From assembly GCF_030142075.1 (NCBI RefSeq), contig NZ_CP126241.1, positions 1,116,001 through 1,180,000 on the forward strand: 64,000 nucleotides of DNA. The letters run 5' to 3'. The DNA comes from Arthrobacter sp. zg-Y20 (lineage in GTDB: Bacteria > Actinomycetota > Actinomycetes > Actinomycetales > Micrococcaceae). A program made the position numbers and the translations under genes. The number at the start of each line of letters is the position of its first letter. The first letter of the stretch is position 1. Under the pieces are notes generated by a model that made no database searches, was not told the DNA's origin, and saw only the letters and a program-made list of their open reading frames with translations. Positions 27,104-30,632 of the stretch are shown here, piece after piece.

Positions 27104-27142
27104 TAAACGGCCGGGCCCCGAAATCGGGCGCCCGGCCGTTTA
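27104..27142 (-). terminator. Intrinsic terminator after the secreted peptide gene
   Basis: Arms 27104-27116 and 27130-27142 are inverse complements of 13 bases, extended by CCCG/CGGG with one bulged C and an AAAT loop. Reading the minus strand, a T-rich run follows (TTTATTTTTTTCC), the classic intrinsic form. It isolates the peptide transcript from deoC. Confidence 0.88.
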
Positions 27143-27155
27143 GAGCGGTTCGTTT

Positions 27156-27299
27156 TTAGTAGTAGCCGGGCCAGTTGCCCATCAGCTGTACATGAGTGCT
27201 GCCCGGAGCGGCCGATACAGTGGCAGCCGAAGCCGGCGCGGCCGCGCCCGCTCCGAGGAGGACAGCGGCCAATAGTGCTGCTGCACCAAGTTTTTTCAT
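27156..27299 (-). CDS. Small secreted peptide precursor (47 aa)
   Basis: A short open frame with good coding signs. It encodes a Sec signal peptide (MKKLGAAALLAAVLLGAGAA, then APASA with a likely AXA cleavage site near residue 25) followed by a predicted mature peptide of about 22 residues ending HVQLMGNWPGYY. AAGGAG lies seven bases before ATG 27299, and a strong intrinsic terminator follows the stop, so it is a single-gene transcript. No transmembrane anchor, cysteines or lanthipeptide motif is visible. The gene is divergent from the TPR protein at 27456; this pairing resembles the peptide/TPR-receptor gene pairs of Firmicutes. Identity as a signal is inference. Confidence 0.72.
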   Translation of the reverse strand: MKKLGAAALLAAVLLGAGAAAPASAATVSAAPGSTHVQLMGNWPGYY

Positions 27300-27336
27300 G
27301 GAGTGCTCCTTGGGGGAAAGTTCATTCAGGGTGGGA

Positions 27337-27370
27337 CAATTGGAGTGTAGCTATGATTAGGATCCAATTG
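27337..27370. promoter_or_regulatory. Inverted repeat between peptide and TPR genes
   Basis: CAATTGGA at 27337-27344 and TCCAATTG at 27363-27370 are perfect inverse complements with 18 bases between, so the half-site centres are 26 bases apart. It lies mid-way in the 156-base divergent spacer, just where promoters for both genes should be; TATGAT at 27352-27357 lies inside. A candidate plus-strand promoter nearer the TPR gene is TTGGTG (27389-27394) with TATGTA (27413-27418), 18-base spacing. The repeat could be an operator; no binding protein is known. Confidence 0.5.
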
Positions 27371-27455
27371 ATGTGCGGCGCGCGTTCTTTGGTGAATGCT
27401 GAGCAAATATTTTATGTAACCGTTGGACCTTGACCCCTGAAAGAGGCCTGCAGCG

Positions 27456-28484
27456 TTGGAACAGAATCCAGTCGTTATAGTCAACGAGTATCGAGCACAG
27501 CAGGCCAAGGCTGAGCATGACTATGCAAAGGCTATTGAATACTCCGCAATTGCCCGCGATGCAGCCCTAAGTGACGGCGACAAGTGGGCGTTTCACCGGT
27601 CATCTTTCAATATCGCTCATTTTCAGTACGCACTGGGACGAATGGACGACTGCATTCGCACCATTGAGGAACTCGTGAAGCATCCTGCCATAACTGAATA
27701 CCCTGAGTTGGTAGCCCAGGCCCGGACGCTGCTTGCCCACGCACTGCAGAACAACGGTGCGAGTGATCGAGCGTTCATCGCTGCCGAAGAAGCCGCAAGT
27801 CTGGTTCCGGATGAGTCGGGACAGCTCCGTTTGGTACTCCAGCATTCCATCGTTTCCACCCTCGCTGAGAAGGGTGAATCAGAAGAAGCGTGGCGGGAAG
27901 CACTCGTAATGGATACCCTGGTTGGCCCGGAATCGGGCGTAAGGGATCGCGGCATGGCTTATTGGGCCATCGGAAATGCCGGCTTTATGTCCGGACGTAT
28001 CACCGAGGGACAGGAGTATCACGACCGAGCGGCAATCGACCTCGTTCGTATCGGCGACGTGAATCTGTGGGCACTCTTTAACAAGGCTGCTGCCAATATG
28101 CGCCTTGAAGCAGGTCTCATAAACAGCGCGACACTTGAATGTGTTGAACGGGCAGAGGTTGCTATTTCGGTTGTGGGCGGCAACGTTGCGGACAAGGTGG
28201 AAATCCTCTTGGCACGCGCCCATTGGGAATACGCGTCAGGGAACTTGGAGGTCGCAGAGAACAAGCTCCGTGAGGTTGTGGCCCAAACCAAGGAGATGTT
28301 CCCGTATATTCGGGCCCAGTCCCTTCAGCTGCTCAGCGGGTGCCTGCTGCAGGCGGGCCGAAAGGGCGAGGCGCTCAAAGTCGCGCTGGAAAGCGAGCAG
28401 ATCTTCCTGGAAACCGGCGCCGCCGAGCGTGCGTTCCAAGTCCGTACATTCATTGACACCATGGAAGCAGCCCGCGAGCAATAG
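27456..28484 (+). CDS. TPR-repeat protein without DNA-binding domain
   Basis: A 342-residue soluble, all-helical protein built of TPR-like helix pairs from the first residues to the end (examples: NIAHFQYALGRMDDCIRTIE, ARAHWEYASGNLEVAENKLR, LLSGCLLQAGRKGEALKVA). There is no helix-turn-helix, signal peptide or membrane segment, so it looks like a Rap-type, and not an Rgg/PlcR-type, TPR receptor. TTG 27456 is used, with AGAGG upstream; a stop at 27438 rules out a longer form. Base composition is markedly lower in G+C than the neighbours (two sampled 60-base lines gave 47% and 60%, against 77% in one mfd line). It diverges from a secreted-peptide gene. Function is not proven. Confidence 0.7.
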   Translation: MEQNPVVIVNEYRAQQAKAEHDYAKAIEYSAIARDAALSDGDKWAFHRSSFNIAHFQYALGRMDDCIRTIEELVKHPAITEYPELVAQARTLLAHALQNNGASDRAFIAAEEAASLVPDESGQLRLVLQHSIVSTLAEKGESEEAWREALVMDTLVGPESGVRDRGMAYWAIGNAGFMSGRITEGQEYHDRAAIDLVRIGDVNLWALFNKAAANMRLEAGLINSATLECVERAEVAISVVGGNVADKVEILLARAHWEYASGNLEVAENKLREVVAQTKEMFPYIRAQSLQLLSGCLLQAGRKGEALKVALESEQIFLETGAAERAFQVRTFIDTMEAAREQ

Positions 28485-28653: not shown

Positions 28654-29058
28654 ATGGCTAGATACGAGGGGCACCCGACAACGGTGCAGTACCCGCCCGC
28701 GCCCGGATCCATGGACGTTCATCTGTCCGAGGAGGGGCACCTGGTGCTTGAGCTGCCGCCGGGCGAGGTTGTGACGGGCACCATGGCCGAGATTGCGGCC
28801 GACAACATCATCAGGATGGCCAGCAGCGGTAAGTTGCCGTTGCTCCTGACCCTGTCCGGTGTCGAATCCATCACCCGGGGTGCCCGGGAGGTATTCAGTG
28901 CTGCGCGCTCCCTCTCCGCCGTCGCCGTCATCGGTGTTTCACCGGTTGACCGCGTTATCGCCAACTTCCTTCTGGGCGGGGAAGTCCAGCCCTGCCCCAC
29001 CCGTTATTTCTCCTCCGAGGCGGACGCCCTGATCTGGCTGGAACGGTTCGCCTCGTGA
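28654..29058 (+). CDS. STAS/SpoIIAA-like protein (DUF7793-like)
   Basis: A 134-residue cytoplasmic protein with an alpha/beta pattern like the SpoIIAA/STAS group: LVLELPPGEVVTGTMAEIAA, LLLTLSGVESITRGAREVF and SLSAVAVIGVSPVDRVIANF. Such proteins usually bind partner regulators. GGGGGA precedes ATG 28654. The longer frame from 28537 is not favoured. The stop overlaps the start of the GGDEF-EAL gene (TGATG at 29056), so the two are translationally coupled and probably act together. Confidence 0.65.
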   Translation: MARYEGHPTTVQYPPAPGSMDVHLSEEGHLVLELPPGEVVTGTMAEIAADNIIRMASSGKLPLLLTLSGVESITRGAREVFSAARSLSAVAVIGVSPVDRVIANFLLGGEVQPCPTRYFSSEADALIWLERFAS

Positions 29059-30632
29059 TGGCGGATCAAGATCAGGCAGCACCCTCGGCATATAACGACG
29101 ACCGGTTGAACAAGATCGTGGAGGGCATTGTCAGCATTGCCGCCGGCGATCTGTCTGCCCGGATTCCCATATCGGCTGCCCGTGACCAGGTGGACGCGGT
29201 CAGCACCGGTATTAACCTGCTGGCCGCAGAGCTGGATGACATCTACCGCGACTTTGAGCAGCGCGTGGAAAACCGCACCGAGGAATTGCGGGAGGCCCAT
29301 GCCCAGATGCAGCACATGGCACTCTCGGATCCGCTCACCGGCGTCGCAAACCGGCTGGCGCTGATGCAGGTAACCGAAGATGCGTTGAGCGAGTGGAACG
29401 GTGCGGAGCCTGCGCCTGCAATGTTGATGATCGATCTCGATGGGTTCAAAGACATCAACGACAGCTTCGGCCACAACGCGGGGGACCGCGTCCTTCAGGA
29501 GGTTGCCGTGCGGCTGCTCCGCGCGGTGCCGCCGAGGAGCACCGTGGCCCGGCTCGGCGGGGACGAATTTGCAATCCTGCTGCCGCGCGTGAATCGTTTG
29601 TCCGCCCGTGCAGCGGCAGAGCGGCTTCAGGAGGCACTGAGCATCCGTACCGAGGTGGAAGAACTGGATGTGTGGCCGCGGGCCAGCATCGGGGTTCACC
29701 TGGCCGAAGCAGGGCAGTCCGCCACCGATCTCCTCCTGCGTGCCGACACCGCAATGTATATCGCGAAGGATGAGGGCCCCGGGATGGTCCGGGCCTTCGA
29801 ACCGGTCATGCTGTATGCCCGGCAGCTGCGCCGGGACATGGTGTCCGAACTGCGCAACGCCGTGGAACGCAACGAATTCCGGCTGGACTACCAGCCGGTG
29901 GTGGACCTGGCCAGCGGGCGGATGCAAGGCGTTGAGGTCCTGCTGCGCTGGCAGCATCCCACACAGGGACTGATCATGCCGGACGCTTTTATCCCCCTGG
30001 CTGAGGAGTGCGGCGCCATTGGGGGCATAGGCCGCTGGGTGCTGCGGTCTTCCCTCGAGCAGTTGGCGGCTTGGCGGGCCGCCGGAAACGACCAGGACGG
30101 GTTCCACATCCGGGTCAACGTCTCCCCGTCTGAGTTGCAGAGCATGGACCTGGTGGACTACGTCCGCGCCCAGCTGCGGGAAACGGGAGCAGCTCCGCGG
30201 GATCTGGTCCTGGAAATCACCGAGAGTGCGTTTGTAGGCAGCGGAGACGTGGAGACGTACTCCATGAAGTCACTCAAGGCACTGGGAGTACGGCTGGAAA
30301 TCGACGACTTCGGAACCGGGTATTCCTCCATCAGCTACCTGCGGCGACTGCCCGTGGCCACCGTCAAGGTGGACCGGGCCCTGATTGCCACCATCAGCCG
30401 GGACGAAGGCCAGCTGAAATTCGTGGACGCCGTGCACCGCCTCATTCAGGCGGCCGGGATGGAAGCCGTCTTTGAGGGCATTGAAACCCGTGACCAGGCC
30501 CGCCTCCTGCGCCAGATGGGCTGCTCCAGTGCGCAGGGCTACTTCTTCAGCCGCCCGCTGTCGGCTGAGCAGGTGGGAACCCTGCTGGCCAGCGGCAGTC
30601 GTCTGCCCCTGGCCACCGAACTACTCGCCTGA
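29058..30632 (+). CDS. GGDEF-EAL cyclic-di-GMP turnover protein
   Basis: A 524-residue soluble protein. Residues about 15-60 look like a HAMP-type helical segment (IAAGDLSARIPIS) followed by a coiled coil to about 85, without any transmembrane helix. The GGDEF domain (about 88-240) keeps the intact signature ARLGGDEFAIL and is likely able to make cyclic-di-GMP. The EAL domain (about 258-505) has EVL in place of EAL but retains the glutamate, the EITES and EIDDFGTGYSS metal-binding motifs, TVKVDR and EGIET, so phosphodiesterase activity is possible. The net output is unknown. It is coupled to the preceding STAS-like gene. Confidence 0.92.
   Translation: MADQDQAAPSAYNDDRLNKIVEGIVSIAAGDLSARIPISAARDQVDAVSTGINLLAAELDDIYRDFEQRVENRTEELREAHAQMQHMALSDPLTGVANRLALMQVTEDALSEWNGAEPAPAMLMIDLDGFKDINDSFGHNAGDRVLQEVAVRLLRAVPPRSTVARLGGDEFAILLPRVNRLSARAAAERLQEALSIRTEVEELDVWPRASIGVHLAEAGQSATDLLLRADTAMYIAKDEGPGMVRAFEPVMLYARQLRRDMVSELRNAVERNEFRLDYQPVVDLASGRMQGVEVLLRWQHPTQGLIMPDAFIPLAEECGAIGGIGRWVLRSSLEQLAAWRAAGNDQDGFHIRVNVSPSELQSMDLVDYVRAQLRETGAAPRDLVLEITESAFVGSGDVETYSMKSLKALGVRLEIDDFGTGYSSISYLRRLPVATVKVDRALIATISRDEGQLKFVDAVHRLIQAAGMEAVFEGIETRDQARLLRQMGCSSAQGYFFSRPLSAEQVGTLLASGSRLPLATELLA

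Follow-up and report, generated by a model that had tools for sequence, protein, structure and literature searches.

The 64-kb stretch of DNA considered here (hereafter the window) comes from Arthrobacter sp. zg-Y20, whose genome (G000) comprises 3.53 Mb in one contig, and carries a small gene for a predicted secreted propeptide lying back-to-back with a gene for a tetratricopeptide repeat (TPR) protein. Both frames were found where the original prediction, which suggested that they could be a peptide signal and its receptor, had placed them. With both start codons inferred, the features of this pair are as follows; HTH denotes a helix-turn-helix domain.

27156..27299, minus strand: propeptide gene, 47 residues, MKKLGAAALLAAVLLGAGAAAPASA / ATVSAAPGSTHVQLMGNWPGYY, with ATG at 27299 and stop at 27156
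27225..27299, minus strand: Sec-type signal peptide, residues 1-25, composed of MKK, a hydrophobic stretch, and ASA, judged by eye
27165..27182, minus strand: MGNWPG, the predicted signal core, covering positions -3 to +2 around the tryptophan, from the consensus of 259 cores
27306..27311, minus strand: propeptide ribosome-binding site AAGGAG, from sequence
27335..27356, no strand assigned: intergenic conserved block, possible propeptide promoter, from a DNA alignment of 10 loci
27104..27142, minus strand: intrinsic terminator hairpin 3′ of the propeptide gene, −34.8 kcal/mol, z −5.2, with a U run behind it
27456..28484, plus strand: HTH-less TPR protein, the proposed peptide receptor, 342 residues, with TTG start at 27456 and stop at 28484

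A signal peptide, a strong ribosome-binding site, an intrinsic terminator, and a mature peptide of about 22 residues had all been described for the 47-residue frame, and were borne out by the sequence together with a by-eye reading and a crude rule for the signal peptide; the mature peptide predicted after ASA is the 22-residue ATVSAAPGSTHVQLMGNWPGYY. The promoter status of the intergenic block is a guess, since no match to the sigma-70 consensus was found there in a promoter scan. A simple terminator scan, returning 2 terminators against a shuffle mean of 2.1, missed the hairpin at 27104-27142, and no RNA element scored above the gathering score.

The TPR protein matched only TPR-type families in Pfam, with no HTH domain detected by that search, in agreement with its original description as an all-TPR protein devoid of a DNA-binding domain. 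The AlphaFold model (predicted local distance difference test, pLDDT, 94.3; predicted template modeling score, pTM, 0.85) is a helical superhelix of 17 long helices and one short one—that is, eight helix pairs and one end helix—and contains no membrane segment. The suggestion that the invariant Trp and Asn residues form groove contacts was dropped, the register of the repeats being unsure.

Conservation of the pair was examined by searching for the TPR protein in 148 whole genomes, of which 58 gave a match, including all 29 belonging to the genus, a term used here for Arthrobacter sensu lato within the Micrococcaceae. Each genus genome contains a window-type TPR gene, the 28 others being 32-57% identical to that of the window, and in all 29 this gene is adjoined by a divergent secreted frame. 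The TPR protein is the fastest-evolving among the genes compared. Its low G+C content had been noted before and was confirmed (0.563 and 0.603 in the two 1-kb steps at the gene, versus 0.600-0.708 across the other 62), but the separate ancestry then proposed for it was rejected, as the gene lies between DeoC and the DUF7793/GGDEF-EAL genes in 29 of 29 genomes. The constancy of these flanks indicates that the gene has been inherited in place and evolves rapidly. The propeptide frame, judging from sequence comparison, is itself under purifying selection. Moreover, of 39 small signal-like frames in the window it alone has a GxWP core, which, together with its retention in all 29 genomes, argues that it is more than a chance frame. 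The same frame rule applied to 103,034 bases from 16 loci of a TPR paralogue gave 32 frames, one with GxWP, which is taken for a frame nested within rpfB (L211).

That paralogue reflects the presence in every genus genome (29/29) of at least one further TPR match besides the window-type gene; in the 16 genus genomes inspected by sequence, the second TPR gene is located between rpfB and ksgA. At none of these 16 loci (L002, L201, and L204-L217) was a divergent secreted frame found in the 1.5 kb preceding the TPR gene, and WP-containing signal-like frames antisense in rpfB at L205 and L212 were not counted. The copy in the window's own genome (L002 1468-2688, G000:C1) is a receptor paralogue with an HTH-like start that is unrecognized by Pfam and with no propeptide alongside.

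A receptor profile search returned loci that, where named, belong nearly all to Arthrobacter and Paenarthrobacter. A first pass detected a divergent secreted frame in 76 of 80 named loci, the misses being the HTH-bearing receptors L129 and L148, the contig edge L111, and L096, where the first receptor has no such frame in 1.1 kb of upstream sequence and the second has one. Extended to 151 distinct receptor frames (121 without an HTH motif and 30 with one, many of them close relatives of one another), the search found a divergent secreted frame containing WP or FP beside 134, one of them doubtful; since the rule requires WP or FP, these counts hold for peptides of that type. Such a frame accompanies 113 of the 121 HTH-less receptors and 21 of the 30 HTH-bearing receptors. 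The eight HTH-less misses comprise two contig edges (L111 and L113), L096, a frame with an internal stop (L048), two members of a deep branch (L073 and L074), and two rpfB-ksgA paralogues (L002 and L201). Had the TPR gene commonly lacked a secreted neighbor, or had the 47-residue frame not been conserved, the original prediction would have been undermined, but the frame was present 29 times out of 29 in the genus and beside the great majority of HTH-less receptors (113/121).

The HTH-bearing receptors form a sister group carrying an XRE-type domain (HTH_3 match of 1.5e-07 in the related receptor L031), which the window's branch does not have. On a receptor tree built by a quick method with midpoint rooting from the 151 rows, the HTH label needs two changes, and the tree therefore speaks neither for nor against a single HTH loss. 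Receptors with a WP propeptide were encountered in 14 genera of the family; outside it, one was found in another family of the same order, at L195, where a receptor–propeptide pair (2758-2934) contains three GGSWPT copies; the system is thus not confined to the window's family. An Arthrobacter-type receptor, a propeptide (VGNWPY), and GGDEF-EAL were also met on a contig (L082, WNZI01000017.1) whose record bears the title Vibrio cholerae strain 35D; the assembly is most likely mislabeled or contaminated. Carriage by phages or plasmids was considered and set aside, with no relative confirmed in viral_contigs and no phage or plasmid match at the limits used.

The propeptides share a layout of well-kept signal peptide, variable middle, and terminal core, the core having a consensus of approximately [VIT]-G-[NWDS]-W-P-[NDHY] and often being present in 2 to 8 tandem copies. 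In 259 cores, with copies counted, position -2 is Gly in 229 and position -1 is Trp or Asn in 201; Trp itself occupies 254 and Phe five, Pro follows by rule, and position +2 is Asn, Asp, or His in 205. Examples include VGDWPH or VGNWPH (L055 and L058), PAVGNWPDRF (L068 and L069), VGNWPDPMTYKTT (L193), ATGWWPN (L112), and TVGGSWPT, found three times in L195. At least two WP copies were found in 20 of 21 precursors beside HTH-bearing receptors (2-8 copies) and in 39 of 113 beside HTH-less receptors (2-6 copies), while the window's propeptide has one copy. A second propeptide was sought in the window's own genome, with nothing convincing found (next match at E 0.21).

Comparison of copies within the 59 multi-copy precursors gave, for the four residues around WP (Trp and Pro themselves being excluded), proportions of nonsynonymous (pN) and synonymous (pS) differences of 0.009 and 0.470, a ratio of 0.02; in the linkers of the same precursors pN was 0.357 and pS was 0.456, a ratio of 0.78. 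Copies nearly fixed within one precursor, as opposed to drifting linkers, point to the core as the selected product. Between genomes (138 related pairs), pN/pS was 0.11 for the signal peptide (first 25 residues), 0.38 for the spacer, and 0.15 for the core. The number of different six-residue cores among the 134 precursors is 80; on these comparisons, selection is holding the copies within one precursor alike, though cores differ among precursors. Separately, tandem peptide–receptor duplications, with each receptor next to its own pheromone type, were observed at L219 (1543-4500), L220 (2096-4999), L091, and L106. The co-occurrence in 29 of 29 genomes, the purifying selection, the tandem cores, and the HTH-bearing sister group all support the secreted frame and the TPR protein as a peptide–receptor pair, an assignment that can be made with considerable confidence; the last two make signaling much likelier than could have been known from the window when the pair was first proposed.

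Immediately downstream of the TPR gene lie two overlapping frames, one of which encodes an enzyme of cyclic dimeric guanosine monophosphate (c-di-GMP) turnover.

28654..29058, plus strand: DUF7793 protein, possible enzyme partner, Pfam 3.1e-14, start read from sequence
29055..30632, plus strand: HAMP-like/GGDEF/EAL protein, the proposed output, from Pfam, with HAMP slightly below the cut-off and intact motifs

A close GGDEF-EAL relative (E 1e-90 or better) was found within 6 kb of all 42 HTH-less receptor–peptide pairs checked, 37 of these within 1 kb, and within the same distance of none of 24 HTH-bearing receptors (11 of which test proximity), 29 genus paralogues, or four other matches. At E 0.001, every one of the 29 genus genomes gives a single GGDEF match, in no case more than 3 kb from the window-type TPR gene. 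DeoC is present at 29 of 113 loci, those of the window's genus alone, and GGDEF-EAL in the examined flanks of 100 of the 113; in the named loci it was found at 73 of 80, downstream of the receptor in 55 and upstream in 18. The genus-restricted DeoC and the occurrence of GGDEF-EAL on either side indicate that the link between receptor and enzyme outlives rearrangement. Both the GGDEF and the EAL motif are preserved in 72 of the 73, the remaining match being partial. The window's own genome has one GGDEF match and two EAL matches, and its only other EAL match (G000:C1:277660-278322), in a 285-residue open frame with no GGDEF match, is a candidate stand-alone c-di-GMP phosphodiesterase.

The DUF7793 protein is predicted, from a model with pLDDT 79.6 that matches SpoIIAA-like folds, to adopt a STAS/SpoIIAA-like fold. 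It is 40% identical to PDB 3bl4, from Arthrobacter sp. FB24 (Arth_0117), although superposition of the model was poor (template modeling score, TM, 0.35). PDB 3bl4 was deposited as a protein of unknown function, and the DUF7793 gene here overlaps that of a c-di-GMP enzyme.

The linkage bears on a different account of the receptor's target, in which the pair is real but a transcription factor is what the HTH-less receptor controls (it might, for instance, associate with the rpfB-ksgA paralogue), and GGDEF-EAL merely belongs to the regulon. The occurrence of at least two receptor matches in each of the 29 genus genomes would fit this account, as would the existence of HTH-bearing receptors accompanied by peptides of the same type, but the HTH-like start of the paralogue in the window's genome is unrecognized by Pfam, and a GGDEF-EAL link of 42/42 versus 0/24 and 0/29 is better explained by enzyme contact or co-function, so that it appears rather unlikely. 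That the secreted peptide serves as an antimicrobial or another exported effector, with the TPR protein providing immunity or handling, is quite improbable. Variable-ended small secreted frames beside a fast-evolving protein also fit bacteriocin/immunity pairs, but a TPR superhelix modeled without a membrane segment, like short cores repeated up to eight times, HTH-bearing sister receptors, and a constant link to a c-di-GMP enzyme all speak against such a pair, as does the lack of a PADLOC match; a known defense protein was likewise discarded as a candidate, there being no PADLOC match at E 0.01.

In several other genera, genes for polysaccharide metabolism lie in or near the locus. At L224 (4191-8281), L225 (2952-7127), and L226 (3030-7223), a GH18-like/CBM5_12 protein and a membrane-bound family 2 glycosyltransferase (GT2) synthase are encoded between receptor and GGDEF-EAL, a possible exopolysaccharide output under c-di-GMP. 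In L124, L139, L146, L150, and L156, GT2 lies beyond DUF7793. No GT2 match was obtained at E 1e-60 in the 29 genus genomes, and the synthase was consequently rejected as the output in the window's genus, while being a lead in other genera. The proximity of GT2 and GH18/CBM genes might suggest that the peptide acts extracellularly or at the membrane, for instance on polysaccharide machinery, the TPR protein having no connection with it and serving as a scaffold for the c-di-GMP enzyme. This is highly improbable, as the peptide persists in the 29 genus genomes in which no such GT2 match was found, and HTH-bearing receptors with such peptides have neither GGDEF-EAL nor GT2 in their examined flanks.

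The preferred interpretation is that the locus is a peptide-pheromone system whose TPR receptor steers c-di-GMP turnover through protein contact, which is probable as a whole. Computation establishes the existence and conservation of the pair, the selection on its core, the pairing itself, and the linkage to the enzyme. In the proposed mechanism, a short precursor, visible as a selected frame with its own gene, would be exported by the Sec pathway. Signal peptidase and other proteases would then free a short C-terminal peptide around GNWPG, with one precursor giving rise to several like copies in many relatives, and an oligopeptide ATP-binding cassette transporter would import it; five SBP_bac_5 matches are encoded in the genome. 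Inside the cell, as the pairing, the fold, and the paralogue-specific pairing suggest, the peptide may bind on the concave side of the TPR superhelix encoded next to it. Finally, given the linkage, the receptor would most likely contact GGDEF-EAL, possibly via the STAS-like DUF7793, such that c-di-GMP would be set by cell density; action by protein contact is proposed because the HTH-less receptor has no DNA-binding domain. At sister loci with an XRE HTH receptor, the same kind of peptide would instead switch transcription directly. For c-di-GMP as the direct output, taken by itself, the chances are about even or marginally better.

Several observations weigh against this interpretation. For nine of the 30 HTH-bearing frames the rule returned no WP frame, and L071, one of the 21 positives, looks spurious. 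The tandem loci are four in number and come from related strains. The co-variation of peptide and receptor originally proposed as a check was weak in the genus (partial rho 0.19 given DeoC, p 0.007; 0.03 and not significant given GGDEF-EAL), and core distance within the genus tracks GGDEF-EAL (rho 0.55) better than the receptor (0.35); as it is weak and vanishes with the GGDEF-EAL control, this correlation is not leaned on. The other 13 of the 24 HTH-bearing receptors lie in genomes without such an enzyme and thus do not test proximity. The linkage could stem from the shared descent of a single cluster, although the order of the genes and their other neighbors vary. In G079 a GT2 synthase adjoins GGDEF-EAL, and no HTH-less pair was seen on that contig. 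Peptide processing and import are assumed by analogy. Nor is the fold match special: Foldseek listed no entry of the RRNPPA family of peptide receptors among its best 50 matches, and in a second look, in which several such entries appear, LGN and O-GlcNAc transferase outscore them.

Short-peptide communication through TPR receptors has been described for Bacillota, and the present system, if real, would give part of another large phylum a peptide language, as WP receptors in 14 genera and at L195 imply. According to PMC10075063, which applied RRNPP_detector to complete Firmicutes and viral genomes, the signals of Actinobacteria are typically enzyme-made small molecules. In word searches, PMC10075063 contained none of the words c-di-GMP, diguanylate, and GGDEF, and PMC12700828 and PMC9765709 no word starting with "actino"; passages of a review on quorum sensing in Actinobacteria (PMC4748050) describe no such pair. 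The PMC literature, a scope that leaves preprints and most subscription journals outside, yielded no paper on such a system among the matches listed, and four core motifs searched there as strings returned one unrelated paper. If the interpretation is correct, cell density would be read straight into c-di-GMP, and the genus, whose one GGDEF gene adjoins the pair in all 29 genomes, would be an unusually simple place to study how a population signal sets this messenger. The predicted peptides are short and readily synthesized.

Two known systems invite comparison. SiaC of Pseudomonas is a STAS-like partner of the diguanylate cyclase SiaD, with SiaB and SiaA being the SiaC kinase and phosphatase. 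The STAS/SpoIIAA-like model of DUF7793 and the overlap of its gene with that of GGDEF-EAL recall this arrangement, and the weak structural matches of the model include the SiaB-SiaC entry 6kko (E 0.05), but a peptide and a TPR protein would here take the place of kinase/phosphatase control. In the RRNPPA systems of Bacillota (Rap-Phr, NprR-NprX, PlcR-PapR, Rgg, PrgX, and AimR), as proposed here, a small exported propeptide is encoded next to a cytosolic TPR superhelix receptor. At 342 residues, the window protein falls within their range of about 250-500, and a small propeptide gene, with export judged by eye and by a crude rule, adjoins it in 29 of 29 genus genomes. RRNPPA receptors include both HTH-bearing forms and HTH-less forms such as Rap; here, the XRE HTH is absent from the window protein and present in related receptors. 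Rap proteins target Spo0F, ComA, and conjugation regulators, whereas the neighbor of the HTH-less receptor here is a GGDEF-EAL enzyme. Multi-pheromone precursors are known as well, tandem pheromones being described for Rap systems of Bacillus phages in PMC11343458, and would here take the form of several GxWP copies per precursor. The actinomycetotal host, the GxWP core, the divergent receptor and propeptide genes, and the c-di-GMP enzyme beside the HTH-less branch set the present system apart. Searched against PDB chains—that is, solved structures only—the receptor profile gave no RRNPPA receptor at E 0.01, the 14 sequences at that level or better being generic TPR proteins, designed proteins, and AfsR. 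The best reading is thus of a system that works like those of Bacillota, without detected sequence kinship. Whether it constitutes a separate Actinomycetota family of GxWP pheromones with intracellular receptors, one branch of which controls the sole diguanylate cyclase by contact and without DNA binding, is evenly balanced. Overall, the locus and its relatives look like a new peptide communication system.
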